This document shows, one piece after another, positions 3,316-11,447 of a stretch of 36,594 bases of DNA (positions are counted from its first letter, which is position 1; every line of letters starts with the position of its first letter). A program made the position numbers and the translations under genes. Below the pieces are notes generated by a model. The model did no database searches and had not been told where the DNA came from. It saw nothing but the letters and a program-made list of their open reading frames with translations. The DNA comes from a virus. The stretch spans positions 1-36,594 of IMG/VR virus record IMGVR_UViG_3300003873_000059; one strand, written 5' to 3'.

Positions 3316-4232
3316 TATGGATTCAAGTCTATACGTGTGCCGATCATGGTTATATTACCATCAGCAGTCAAATTATAATTACCCTTTACGTGAGTGGTTA
3401 GATTTTTGTCTACCAGTAAATTACAATTTCCATTTATTGTCACATTAACGTCGCCCATAACATGAACGAAATCCGACCCAGCTACAATTTCGTAGTTGTC
3501 CTTGACGACTTTAGTTACTTTTGAACCATCTGGATGGATTTCTTCAAATGTACCTGTTCTATGATACCGATGAAGACGCTCCGCACCGGGCGTATCGTCA
3601 ACCTCCGTAATATGCCCGGATTCTGATTCATTTACCCGATTGAATGGATACTTGGCATTATATGCTGTAGTTAACTCGTTCCATGTTGCTCCAGTGGAAG
3701 TCGGAACATTTTTATCTTCTGTATCCCGTTTCTTCTTGACAATGGTCTGATTGATATTTTGATTTCTAGCTAGTCTGTTTGTGTCCGGCTCTTTGATAAA
3801 ATTGGTTCTTGGAAATAACTCACCTTGTGAACCAACAGTGTGTGGTCGATTCGCTGCGGGAATAGTAGCTGCCGTATCATTGAATCCATCATTGATAGGA
3901 GCAGTCTGAGATATACCAGGCAATGTATATGTATAAATCAAATTTTGGCATGCTCTACCGTCACGAGAGAAACCACCAACCCACGTTCCTTCTACTGGGC
4001 CAATTGGAGTGTCACCGATTCCATTCATTGATGCGCTAGTGATTGGCATGCCTGGATACGCCCAAGGCAACGATAGGACAGGGATTCCTTCGCCGGTTTT
4101 ACTATCCTCTACCAATTTGCTTGAATGTAGTCCAGCTATTCTAACACGAACTCTACCCAATTTTAAAGGGTCATTTCTATCTTCGACTACGCCAACCCAG
4201 CCAAATAACTTTGTTCCTAGAAATGGTGTCAT
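3315..4232 (-). CDS. 5: gp5/VgrG-like central spike without lysozyme domain
   Basis: 305 aa against 575 in T4 gp5. Residues ~8-115 look like the gp5 OB-fold domain ('GWVGVVEDRNDPLKLGRVRVRI', 'WAYPGMP', 'GTWVGGFSRDG'). Residues ~240-305 are a short-repeat beta-helix ('VNVTINGNCNL', 'LTTHVKGNYNLTADGN') like the T4 needle. Between them is a polar linker; the lysozyme domain that T4 carries between OB-fold and needle is absent. It overlaps both the hub gene (ATGA) and the PAAR gene. Cell-wall digestion must be supplied by another protein or not at all. Confidence 0.9.
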   Translation of the reverse strand: MTPFLGTKLFGWVGVVEDRNDPLKLGRVRVRIAGLHSSKLVEDSKTGEGIPVLSLPWAYPGMPITSASMNGIGDTPIGPVEGTWVGGFSRDGRACQNLIYTYTLPGISQTAPINDGFNDTAATIPAANRPHTVGSQGELFPRTNFIKEPDTNRLARNQNINQTIVKKKRDTEDKNVPTSTGATWNELTTAYNAKYPFNRVNESESGHITEVDDTPGAERLHRYHRTGTFEEIHPDGSKVTKVVKDNYEIVAGSDFVHVMGDVNVTINGNCNLLVDKNLTTHVKGNYNLTADGNITMIGTRIDLNP

Positions 4233-7783: not shown

Positions 7784-8665
7784 ATGGCAATTTTTGACAC
7801 ACTTTCAAACACTAATTCTATTCTTGGCAATACGCAGAGCGCAACGAAATCGCTTAGTTCAATCGTCACTGGAATTGGTGGAATAAATTCTATTTCATCT
7901 GCTGTCTCTAAATTGGGGTCAGCGAGCAATGTAATTTCTTCTGTCAATGCCCTTGGATTAGATATTCCCGGACTTGGCATGGTTTCAAAAATATCTCGTG
8001 GTCTAGGAAATCTTCATGGCTCTATCACATCAGCAAAGGCGATAGCCGCAACTATTCCCGGATTTGGTGCTGCTACTGCCGCATTGGGCAAAGCATTGCC
8101 TGCGATGCCTTCATTATTTGGCTCTTCTACACCAGCATCTACACATGATCGACATGATTTTTTCAGAAAGAATATAGGATTTGCCAAGCCGACAAAATAT
8201 AGAGTAAATATGTCTTTGAATATGCCGGGTAATATTCCAGCGTTTGACCGATATGTAGAAGATACTAATTTTAGTTGTACGTCAGCATCTCTACCCGGCG
8301 AATCAGTAGCGACATTTGATGTTCGAAGAGGCAAGCCAATCCAGACCAAACTACCATATGATTTGATCTACTCTGAACTCAGATTGATTTTTAGAGTGTC
8401 TCATGATCACAAAGAAAGAACACTATTTGAAGCATGGCATAATTACATATACGACAAGACGACGAACAGTTTTCGATATCCGGAACAATATTATGGGACT
8501 ATAGATATAACACAACTTTCCAATGATATGAAGAAGATCAAGACTGTTCGTTGTTACGAAGCGTATCCAACTACATTATCCGCTATTGCTCTAGCATACG
8601 ATGCTGATAATGTAGTGGAAACTTTCGATGTTCTGTTCGCATATACTAGCTGGGAATCAATTTAG
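7784..8665 (+). CDS. 54: Baseplate tail tube initiator gp54
   Basis: 293 aa (T4 gp54: 320 aa). gp54 starts polymerisation of the gp19 tube on the baseplate. Residues ~1-125 are a low-complexity Ser/Gly/Ala-rich extension. Residues ~130-293 have the tail-tube fold pattern: 'FSCTSASLPGESV', 'GKPIQTKLPYDLIYSELRLIFRV', 'FEAWHNYIYD', 'RYPEQYYGTIDITQL', 'CYEAYPTTLSAIALAYDADNVVETFDVLFAYTSWE'-type ending. It has its own ribosome site (AGAGGA), unlike the first gene of the operon. Confidence 0.85.
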   Translation: MAIFDTLSNTNSILGNTQSATKSLSSIVTGIGGINSISSAVSKLGSASNVISSVNALGLDIPGLGMVSKISRGLGNLHGSITSAKAIAATIPGFGAATAALGKALPAMPSLFGSSTPASTHDRHDFFRKNIGFAKPTKYRVNMSLNMPGNIPAFDRYVEDTNFSCTSASLPGESVATFDVRRGKPIQTKLPYDLIYSELRLIFRVSHDHKERTLFEAWHNYIYDKTTNSFRYPEQYYGTIDITQLSNDMKKIKTVRCYEAYPTTLSAIALAYDADNVVETFDVLFAYTSWESI

Positions 8666-8673
8666 GAGATTTA

Positions 8674-9396
8674 ATGTCATTACCAATTCTAACAATACCG
8701 AAATATAAAACCACACTTCCTGTATCTGGAATTGAAGTCGAATACCGACCATTTCTAGTGAAAGAAGAAAAAATAATGATCATGGCGGATGCTTCTTCTG
8801 ATGACAAAGATTTAGAGCAGGCAGTTTCTCAAATAATTTCAAATTGTACTTTTGGTAAAATCAATTCGGATGATATTTGTGAAACTGATATTGAGTGGAT
8901 CATCTTACAGATTAGGTGTCGCGCTAAAGGCTATAATACAACACTTTCTTTTCAATGCGAAAATGAAGTAGATGGCAAAAAATGTGGATTTGTCAATGAT
9001 ATTGATGTGGATTTACACAACATCGAAGTGAATAAACCAAACGAATCAAATCTTATTGATCTGGCTGGTGGAATCGGTTTGAAAATGAGAATTCCAAACA
9101 GCAAGATTTTGTTGGCTATTGATTCTATGGATATTCCTTCATTGGAGAAAAAGTTTATGACCATCTATGCTTATATCGAATCAATCTATAGCGCCGATCA
9201 AGTTTGGGAAGTAGAAAAACTCGAAAAGGAAGAGATGGACGATTTCTTTGGTACGTTTACTTCTGCACAGACTAATATGGTAGAAGAATGGATTTCTGAT
9301 GCGCCCGAACTTACATTGACAGTGGATTATAATTGTGCTTCTTGTGGCTGTACTGATAAAATTGAAATCCAAGGGATAGAAAGTTTTTTCGACTGA
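8674..9396 (+). CDS. 26: Baseplate hub assembly protein gp26
   Basis: 240 aa (T4 gp26: 208 aa). This is the T4 baseplate family recognised by 'LPVSGIEVEYRPFLVKEEKIMIM' near the start, then the 'QIISNCTFG' region. Cysteine pairs near residues 107-116 (C-x8-C) and 229-234 (CASCGC) suggest a bound zinc. The ribosome site is AGGAGATTTA. The last codons contain the slippery heptamer T TTT TTC, and the -1 frame continues into a gp51-like sequence. It probably works as a tail assembly chaperone, with the extended form made by frameshifting. Confidence 0.9.
   Translation: MSLPILTIPKYKTTLPVSGIEVEYRPFLVKEEKIMIMADASSDDKDLEQAVSQIISNCTFGKINSDDICETDIEWIILQIRCRAKGYNTTLSFQCENEVDGKKCGFVNDIDVDLHNIEVNKPNESNLIDLAGGIGLKMRIPNSKILLAIDSMDIPSLEKKFMTIYAYIESIYSADQVWEVEKLEKEEMDDFFGTFTSAQTNMVEEWISDAPELTLTVDYNCASCGCTDKIEIQGIESFFD
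9384..9390 (+). promoter_or_regulatory. Putative -1 ribosomal frameshift site T TTT TTC
   Basis: The heptamer fits X XXY YYZ in the gp26 reading frame (codons TTT TTC), six bases before the gp26 stop. AAGGGA at 9371-9376 is a Shine-Dalgarno-like element 7 nt upstream, as at dnaX. I see no convincing downstream stem-loop. Confidence 0.55.
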
Positions 9397-9578
9397 TATT
9401 GATAAGTGATAATCTTGAAACTTTTTATAGATTGAATTTTGAGATGATGCACGAATTTCATTATAGCTTGACTGAAATAGAAAACATGATGCCATGGGAA
9501 CGTGAGATTTATTCTTTCATGATCATAGCAAGATTACAAGAAAAAAAGACTGAATAAGAGGTTGACATGGCAGAAATA
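9390..9578 (+). CDS. 51: gp51-like frame, expressed as a -1 extension of gp26 or alone
   Basis: The -1 frame of gp26 is open from the slippery site to a TAA at 9576-9578, 62 codons, overlapping the tape-measure start by 12 nt. The sequence 'LNFEMMHEFHYSLTEIENMMPWEREIYSFMI' resembles small gp51-type hub assembly proteins and the T-part of lambda-like G-GT tail chaperones. If started alone, the first ATGs are 9444 and 9447, but neither has a usable ribosome site, which favours frameshifting. A frameshift product would be about 301 aa. T4 itself also has 26 followed by 51. Confidence 0.65.
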
Positions 9579-11447
9579 AAAGATAGTGCGACGGCTGATC
9601 TGGACAAAGCAAACGCTGCTGCCAGAAAGAAGGAAGCAGAAAAACGCGATAAACACTTAAAAGATATTGAGAACACTTTAGGTAAAGCCAAAGCGTCTTT
9701 TGATAGATTTGACGTTACCGCTCAGCACAATGAGAAACAATTATCTGAAATTTCTGGAAAATCCTCTGTGCTAAAAACCGTTGTTGAAGGCATGGATAAA
9801 GTAAAAGAAGCGGCTAATGGTTCTTGGCATGAGCAAAAAATAGCCAAAAATCATCTAAAAATTCTACAAAAAGAAATTGCCACAAACGGAAAGCTGTCGA
9901 AAGAAGAAAAAGAATTGTTGGAACAGCAGGCAGATACATTACAACAAGGGTTCAGAAGCAATTCTACTGCCATGACCAAAGTGAAAGGCGCATTGGAGAA
10001 ATACTCTGATGCCGCCGTAGCTGGTATTACTACTCTTTTAGGTAATTCCCCCGCGACGATGTTTTTGTCGAAATTGGTGGTTGATCAAACTAAGAATTTC
10101 TTCGCTAGAAAGAAAGAAAAGAAGATTCAGAAGGCAAGACTAGCAAAACAACGCGCATTAGACAGTAAAAAGATAAAAAAATCAGAAGAAATTGTAGATG
10201 CCATAAAAGAGGCCGATGATAATTCGGCAAACAGAGAATCGCCTGCTGATGACACACTTGAAAAGATTTTGTCTGTCGGCAGTAGTATATTAAAGGAAAT
10301 GACCAAGGGGAAAGATCGTCTTTCTGGATTGAAGTCAAAAGAAGATAAAAGAGAGAAGCCAAAAGCAAAGGTGGTAAAGGAAGAAAAAAAGAAAAATAGT
10401 GGAAATATACTCAAAATTATAGGATCACTTCTGTTAAAACCGCTGATGATGCTTGCTCCTGTTGTTGGTGGGGTGGGAGCAGCGCTTGGATTGCTTCTAT
10501 CCCCCATAACATTAGTCAAAAATATATTTTCTGGTTTGTGGAAAGTATTATCATTTGGTGTGTCTAAATTAAAAAATCTACTTGGATTCAAGCCTAAGAT
10601 GACGGGTGTTCCAAAAATCAAAAAGCCGTCTTTGGCTAAGCGGGTATCTGCGAAGGTATCAAACGCAAAAGGTTCCTTGAAAGGTTCGATTAAGAATATA
10701 GCAACAAAATCAAGAGGTCTTGGGTCGAAGGTATTATCTCATGCAGGAACATTCGCTCGTGGAGCACTCAGATTTGCGGGCCCTGCTGCAGCGGTTGCTG
10801 GTGCTGGAATGGCTGGATACGAAGCGGGGAAATATATTAGAAAAATTCCAGTAGTTCACAAATTAGCCAATAAGGGAACCAACGCGGTTTATAACTTTTG
10901 GCATGGTGACCCAAAGAAACTGGCTAAAAAGAGAAATGCGGAAGATGTTGTTTATAAAAATGGTCTAGCCAAAGCTAAAGGGTATAAGAGCTGGGATGAT
11001 ATGGCACAAAAAAGAAAAGCTGGTGAATATTCTAGTCTCGATCAAAATGCCGCAAATAACGGCGTTGGAGCAAAAGCAAAACATATTAGGAACGATACTC
11101 CAGATTCGTCTAATGTCAAAAAGACCTCGGATAGTCAAGATATTTTTATTCAGTCGACTGCCAAAAATATAAATCTTCATATTGACGGTAAATCCAATAT
11201 AGGAAATGCTATTGCCAACACCAGAAGAAATAACGGAAAGAAAAGTAGAGACAAAAATAGTTTTATAACTAGCACAAACAAAGAAATCAGAGAAAAGCAA
11301 ACAACAAACAATCACGCGCCAACTAAAGTAATATCAGCGCCCACGAGCAATGTGGTAAATCACAATTCTACTACTGTACAGCCGTCCCCAATTCCATGGA
11401 ATGCTGATGGTTCATATATCGCGGCTTCTAAAGCAAACACGTTCTAA
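9567..11447 (+). CDS. 29: Tail tape measure / hub protein gp29-like
   Basis: 626 aa (T4 gp29: 590 aa). It would set tail length and sit inside the tube. Residues 1-130 and 180-290 are Lys/Glu/Ala-rich and helical; 290-350 is hydrophobic ('LLLKPLMMLAPVVGGVGAALGLLLSP') and 395-425 is Gly/Ala-rich, as in tape measures with membrane-active segments. The C-terminal 100 residues are polar and low in complexity. Position after gp26/gp51 matches T4 (26-51-27-28-29). Ribosome site AAGAGG. It ends 10 nt before a strong terminator. Confidence 0.8.
   Translation: MAEIKDSATADLDKANAAARKKEAEKRDKHLKDIENTLGKAKASFDRFDVTAQHNEKQLSEISGKSSVLKTVVEGMDKVKEAANGSWHEQKIAKNHLKILQKEIATNGKLSKEEKELLEQQADTLQQGFRSNSTAMTKVKGALEKYSDAAVAGITTLLGNSPATMFLSKLVVDQTKNFFARKKEKKIQKARLAKQRALDSKKIKKSEEIVDAIKEADDNSANRESPADDTLEKILSVGSSILKEMTKGKDRLSGLKSKEDKREKPKAKVVKEEKKKNSGNILKIIGSLLLKPLMMLAPVVGGVGAALGLLLSPITLVKNIFSGLWKVLSFGVSKLKNLLGFKPKMTGVPKIKKPSLAKRVSAKVSNAKGSLKGSIKNIATKSRGLGSKVLSHAGTFARGALRFAGPAAAVAGAGMAGYEAGKYIRKIPVVHKLANKGTNAVYNFWHGDPKKLAKKRNAEDVVYKNGLAKAKGYKSWDDMAQKRKAGEYSSLDQNAANNGVGAKAKHIRNDTPDSSNVKKTSDSQDIFIQSTAKNINLHIDGKSNIGNAIANTRRNNGKKSRDKNSFITSTNKEIREKQTTNNHAPTKVISAPTSNVVNHNSTTVQPSPIPWNADGSYIAASKANTF

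Follow-up and report, generated by a model that had tools for sequence, protein, structure and literature searches.

The gp26-51 locus of the viral DNA considered here (the window, positions 1 to 36,594 of IMG/VR record IMGVR_UViG_3300003873_000059, 36,594 nucleotides) very probably belongs to a family that uses conserved −1 programmed ribosomal frameshifting to generate short and long chaperones of the lambda G/GT kind. Most ribosomes translating gp26 would stop at the TGA at 9394-9396, releasing a short chaperone of 240 amino acids, and a fraction would slip back one base at T TTT TTC, with both phenylalanine tRNAs re-pairing with TTT TTT, and read 55 more codons in the −1 frame to yield a long chaperone of 294 amino acids. 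The slip rate, which would set the ratio of short to long form, would be raised by an upstream SD-like element, by the nearby stop codon and, for most of the relatives, by an RNA stem that follows closely. By analogy with lambda gpG and gpGT, the N-terminal part common to both forms would coat the tape-measure protein, and the C-terminal addition would recruit tail-tube subunits. As judged from sequence, the frameshift reading of the window locus is right, and the case is an ordinary one in kind.

The putative short form (TAC-N) is encoded in the 0 frame at 8674-9396 on the plus strand and is identified as gp26-like by matches to PF12322 (2.6e-48) and phrog_150 (1.9e-51). An AlphaFold (AF2) model of its N-domain has a mean pLDDT of 92. 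The searches run here turned up no known chaperone with a significant match in sequence or fold: no solved structure was matched significantly by the model in Foldseek, where the HK97 tail assembly chaperone 2ob9 ranked 17 with insignificant values (E 2.3, probability 0.16, TM 0.39 on the target), and none was matched in a profile search of solved structures. A single-sequence search of viral contigs with window gp26 was also without match, whereas profile queries succeeded. Upstream of gp26, at 7784-8665 (plus strand), is the gene for a tail-tube-type protein (phrog_45, 4.2e-39). Downstream, starting 10 nt past the −1 frame stop, is an ORF of 626 amino acids (9567-11447, plus strand) whose position would be that of the tape-measure gene; Pfam, PHROG and NCBIfam gave no significant match for it, nor did a profile comparison with T4 gp29, and no relative of it was detected in the ORFs that lie downstream in 84 loci. 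Its counterpart in Pelagibacter phage HTVC008M is annotated as putative tail tape measure.

The 3′ codons of gp26, AGT-TTT-TTC-GAC-TGA, put T TTT TTC at 9384-9390 (plus strand) in 0-frame register, so that it is a genuine X XXY YYZ heptamer and the predicted site of the −1 shift, as a preliminary description of this DNA had proposed; the distance to the stop codon is 3 nt (one codon, GAC) and not the six bases given there. The −1 frame is open from 9366 to 9557, 63 codons from stop to stop and 57 from the heptamer, and supplies a gp51-type extension (TAC-C, 9390-9557, plus strand) of 55 residues past the shift, ending at TAA 9555-9557. The post-heptamer part scores 7.9e-20 against phrog_634 ('baseplate hub assembly catalyst', gp51) and also matches the tail end of phrog_150, which bears out the earlier statement that the −1 frame encodes a gp51-like sequence. 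The fusion then envisaged is likewise supported, with its length, about 301 amino acids in that description, becoming 294 for the predicted frameshift product (TAC-NC, join(8674..9390,9390..9557), plus strand), whose junction peptide would be IESFFRLILISD.... The window has 58 open frames that are 100 codons or longer, and gp26 is alone among them in combining an in-phase heptamer near its end with a −1 frame that stays open for over 50 codons; at the four remaining slippery heptamers in these frames, 17-32 codons are open in −1. Far stronger evidence against chance, however, is conservation in relatives, and it is on this ground, 253 of 253 relatives, that a chance origin of the heptamer is rejected.

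Alignment of the 26-51 junction in related phages, a check suggested in the preliminary description, reveals T TTT TTN in phase in every one of 253 loci whose gp26 end is readable, T4-type phages and Ackermannviridae excepted. These loci derive from viral contigs and named phages, and since some contigs were fetched twice the approximately 118 remaining after near-duplicate removal (85% over 210 nt) are the better effective count. The last base of the heptamer is C in 141, T in 79, A in 32 and G in 1, and the codon preceding its TTT is always NNT (AGT, AAT, TCT, GAT or GCT; 253/253), the first phenylalanine codon always being TTT. From codon usage alone the probability that all of these preceding codons would end in T is approximately 10^-25 for the first 88 loci, on an assumption of independence that is not fully true. 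Five named relatives at approximately 31-33% identity (cyanophage, Stenotrophomonas, Pelagibacter, Methylophilales and Desulfovibrio phages) all have the heptamer in phase, and in 239 of the 253 loci the 0-frame stop is immediately after it or one codon later. Past the heptamer, relatives differ from one another chiefly in the third bases of −1 frame codons, with the six Ts invariant, and the −1 product is 55-74 amino acids in every complete case except one; the −1 frame is under protein-coding constraint.

Relatives with a start for gp51 and without the heptamer had been named beforehand as what would speak against frameshifting, and they are confined to the T4-type phages, possibly with the Ackermannviridae, other loci keeping the heptamer. 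In the T4-type phages PP01 and Lazarus the heptamer is absent and gp26 and gp51 are separate, divergently oriented genes. In two Ackermannviridae (L013, 4289-4465; L014, 4232-4393) a gp51-like frame (phrog_634, about 2e-4) overlaps gp26 in −1, and no in-phase X XXY YYZ was found at the overlap; these phages likely link gp26 and gp51 differently, by reinitiation or another shift site. The sole exception to an open −1 frame among heptamer-bearing loci is S-SCSM1 (L002, 3700-3745), where the heptamer is kept and an insertion of approximately 8 nt, by comparison with relatives, brings the −1 frame to a stop four codons further on. There gp51 may start at its own ATG, or the record may be in error.

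The AAGGGA at 9371-9376 (plus strand), 7 nt before the heptamer, had been put forward as a possible stimulator. Its position holds; its pairing with CACCUCCU is weak (−3.8 kcal/mol), weaker than is usual in relatives. In relatives, the SD-like match peaks sharply at the 8-mer ending approximately 7 nt before the heptamer (mean −5.4 versus a background of −0.75), with values of −4 or lower in 53 of 72 loci at the peak position, versus 15% at random positions. As the synonymous-codon null for the element is −4.59 (sd 0.16) and the observed value −5.57, nucleotides there have been selected beyond the conserved (E)G residues. The spacing in gp26-51 loci of 7-9 nt is at, or slightly under, the low edge of the 9-14 nt range reviewed as effective for SD elements in −1 shifts (PMC5009743).

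Downstream of the site, and with h being the first T of the heptamer, the segment h+12 to h+84 folds better than its synonymous recodings (mean z −1.27, SE 0.19), versus −0.05 (SE 0.10) for a control inside gp26, due to a stem whose 5′ arm starts approximately 5-6 nt after the heptamer. The partner of this arm differs among the 118 loci, window included: it is a far arm in 62, a near one in 13, a compact one in 11 and none in 32, 'none' meaning no pairing at −9 kcal/mol, with that threshold and the class boundaries chosen after the data were seen. The compact 3′ arm is at about h+30-45, the near at about h+54-69 and the far at about h+109-121, across an 84-nt loop; a stem of 11-13 bp is seen in Methylophilales-type loci and in those of L066. 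Arms from the same locus out-pair arms swapped between loci (for the far stem, z about −12). In an alignment (A3) whose rows were picked after the stem was known and from which some near- and none-class loci were left out, so that its percentages favor the far stem, there are 69 compensating-change cells for that stem, versus 29.4 (sd 8.9) when shuffled and 11-22 in slid registers, one of its pairs being CG in 30 sequences and UA in 30. A register test on all 118 loci gives the stem register the top excess of 25 (z 6.4; next 4.7). Among 31 disjoint nearest-neighbor pairs, these sisters being from far-class loci, there are 18 double compensated changes versus about 3 one-sided, at ten of twelve stem pairs, in a count that excludes the wobble-prone pairs h+20 and h+23, where one-sided changes number 8 and 7 and the bases are often unpaired. 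The swap and slide tests are independent of that threshold and those class boundaries. The synonymous z by stem class, which is partly circular, is −3.25 for far, −3.47 for near, −3.07 for compact and −1.06 to −1.61 for none.

No Rfam family was found at the stem site in the six loci or relatives searched, and RNAalifold yielded no consensus structure for the full set, as this combines all three stem classes with stemless members; covariation and arm-swap tests were used in its place. A different structure is seen in Nitratidesulfovibrio phage SRB7757 (L006, about 3720-3835), where post-heptamer folding at −41.8 kcal/mol (z −6.8 versus synonymous recodings) fits none of the three classes.

The covarying stem is a property of the relatives, the window having the weak SD-like element only. 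No recognizable downstream stem is present in the window, its best duplexes being −2.8 to −3.2 and its synonymous z −0.7 and −0.2. A possible 8-bp pairing of TAATCTTG (9410-9417) with CAAGATTA (9529-9536), found by eye and starting 19 nt past the heptamer, was judged likely to be due to chance. Given the missing stem and the weakness of the SD-like element, the slip rate of the window's own site may be low, or it may be served by a stimulator not seen here. For the cyanophage-type T4-like phages as a group, it is fairly likely that the gp26-51 locus carries a three-part recoding signal, consisting of the SD-like element, T TTT TTN and a stem with three lineage-dependent 3′ arms, and that the phage of the window is a member without a recognizable stem. 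The same proposal, at the same level of confidence, has the ALSH of the gp51 N-terminus partly shaped by RNA pairing rather than protein function, since the far arm is inside the codons of the conserved PWER motif.

A 'baseplate hub assembly catalyst' gene is listed separately in several phage records, two genes are indeed present in T4-type phages, and there is a TAATG overlap in one Ackermannviridae phage (L014), all of which would suit two separate genes, with gp51 having its own start or being reached by termination-reinitiation at the stop of gp26, and the overlap being incidental. For the locus at issue this is nevertheless very unlikely. The only early starts of the window −1 frame are TTG 9399, TTG 9432, ATG 9444 and ATG 9447, none having an SD-like sequence, just as the preliminary description had it in stating that this frame has no usable ribosome site. 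Most relatives also lack a start near the junction: in the first set, 48 of 88 loci have no ATG, GTG or TTG within the first 12 codons past the site, and a candidate −1 start with an SD stronger than −5 kcal/mol is present in 1 of 88, versus 48 of 87 for the gp26 start. Annotated gp51 starts truncate the conserved FFRxALSH region (e.g. Syn9, L097), and both the invariant in-phase T TTT TTN and the base-paired stem would be left unexplained. Transcriptional slippage, in which mRNAs with a U added or lost would give the same fused protein by ordinary translation, has in its favor that the site is a run of 6 Ts (7-8 in some relatives). However, the run mostly has just six Ts and in all 253 loci begins strictly at codon position 3, polymerase slippage requires no particular phase, SD-like element or stem 5-6 nt downstream, and the slippage described in the Atkins review (PMC5009743) is on runs of nine As or Ts; it is very improbable here. 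Ribosomal frameshifting is the reading retained.

In the public genome records examined, slip sites are unmarked. At least four of them, the cyanophage records L096, L100, L101 and L102, omit the gp51 part, with approximately 170 nt left empty after gp26 before another gene begins, and in that of L097 gp51 is started late, giving 47 amino acids; such late starts or omissions result from the −1 frame having no early start and SD. Elsewhere, a related viral contig has a Group I intron match (RF00028, 56.7 bits) on its minus strand (L040, 7935-8401).

The comparison with T4 is informative about the family. T4-type gp51 (249 amino acids) aligns with the whole predicted fusion, N- and C-terminal parts alike (hhalign E 2.2e-14, 228 columns), whereas T4 gp26 aligns with the N-terminal part only and reaches no further than the slip-site FF (E 1.2e-20). 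The earlier statement that 26 and 51 are separate genes in T4 stands, and its description of the −1 domain as gp51-like is refined, the match of T4 gp51 extending beyond that domain to the entire fusion. From these alignments T4 holds the short and long chaperone forms as two genes, agreeing with the PRFect summary (PMC10885494) of Vladimirov et al. 2022, according to which some T4-like phages have a short gene and a longer fused gene. PMC12846349 cites the same work (Vladimirov, Gautam, Davidson 2022, Virology 566:9) for slippery sites of the poly-T type in the TAC-N genes of T4-like phages; by these secondary accounts, frameshifting in the gp26-51 family has probably been reported already. 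What is new, as far as found in a literature consisting largely of papers outside subscription, is that relatives carry the SD-like element selected beyond the peptide and the covarying stem with alternative partners; the latter offers a specific long-range frameshift signal, open to experiment, in phages abundant in the sea. T4 gp26 and gp51 are both listed as hub assembly chaperones, with gp51 required and absent from the particle (PMC3004832), and T4 has been named as an exception among tail assembly chaperone frameshifts (PMC5009743). The exception becomes understandable given the two alignments: frameshifting would be the widespread state in this family, with T4-type phages keeping two genes.

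Among known systems, the T4 genes are thus the homologs (PF12322/phrog_150), and they differ in being two divergently oriented genes without the heptamer, where the window has one overlapping locus with a predicted −1 shift. The comparison with lambda G/GT (Xu, Hendrix, Duda 2004; described in PMC5009743) made in the preliminary description fits: there is a short form and a predicted −1 frameshifted long form, the heptamer is near the end of the first ORF, the second is without its own start, and the pair is placed before the presumed tape-measure gene. Different from lambda are the T-only slippery site and, in relatives, the additional SD-like element and stem. The Vandenendeviridae/Andersonviridae TAC locus (Pseudomonas phage Adele, PMC12846349) is also from myoviruses and has a conserved −1 frameshift at a T-rich site, but its motif is GTTTTT rather than T TTT TTN and the phage families are other ones. 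The combination of an upstream SD-like element, heptamer and downstream stem found in gp26-51 relatives is shared with the −1 frameshifting of E. coli dnaX (PMC5009743), though there the site is A AAA AAG, the stem-loop is simpler, and gene and purpose differ.
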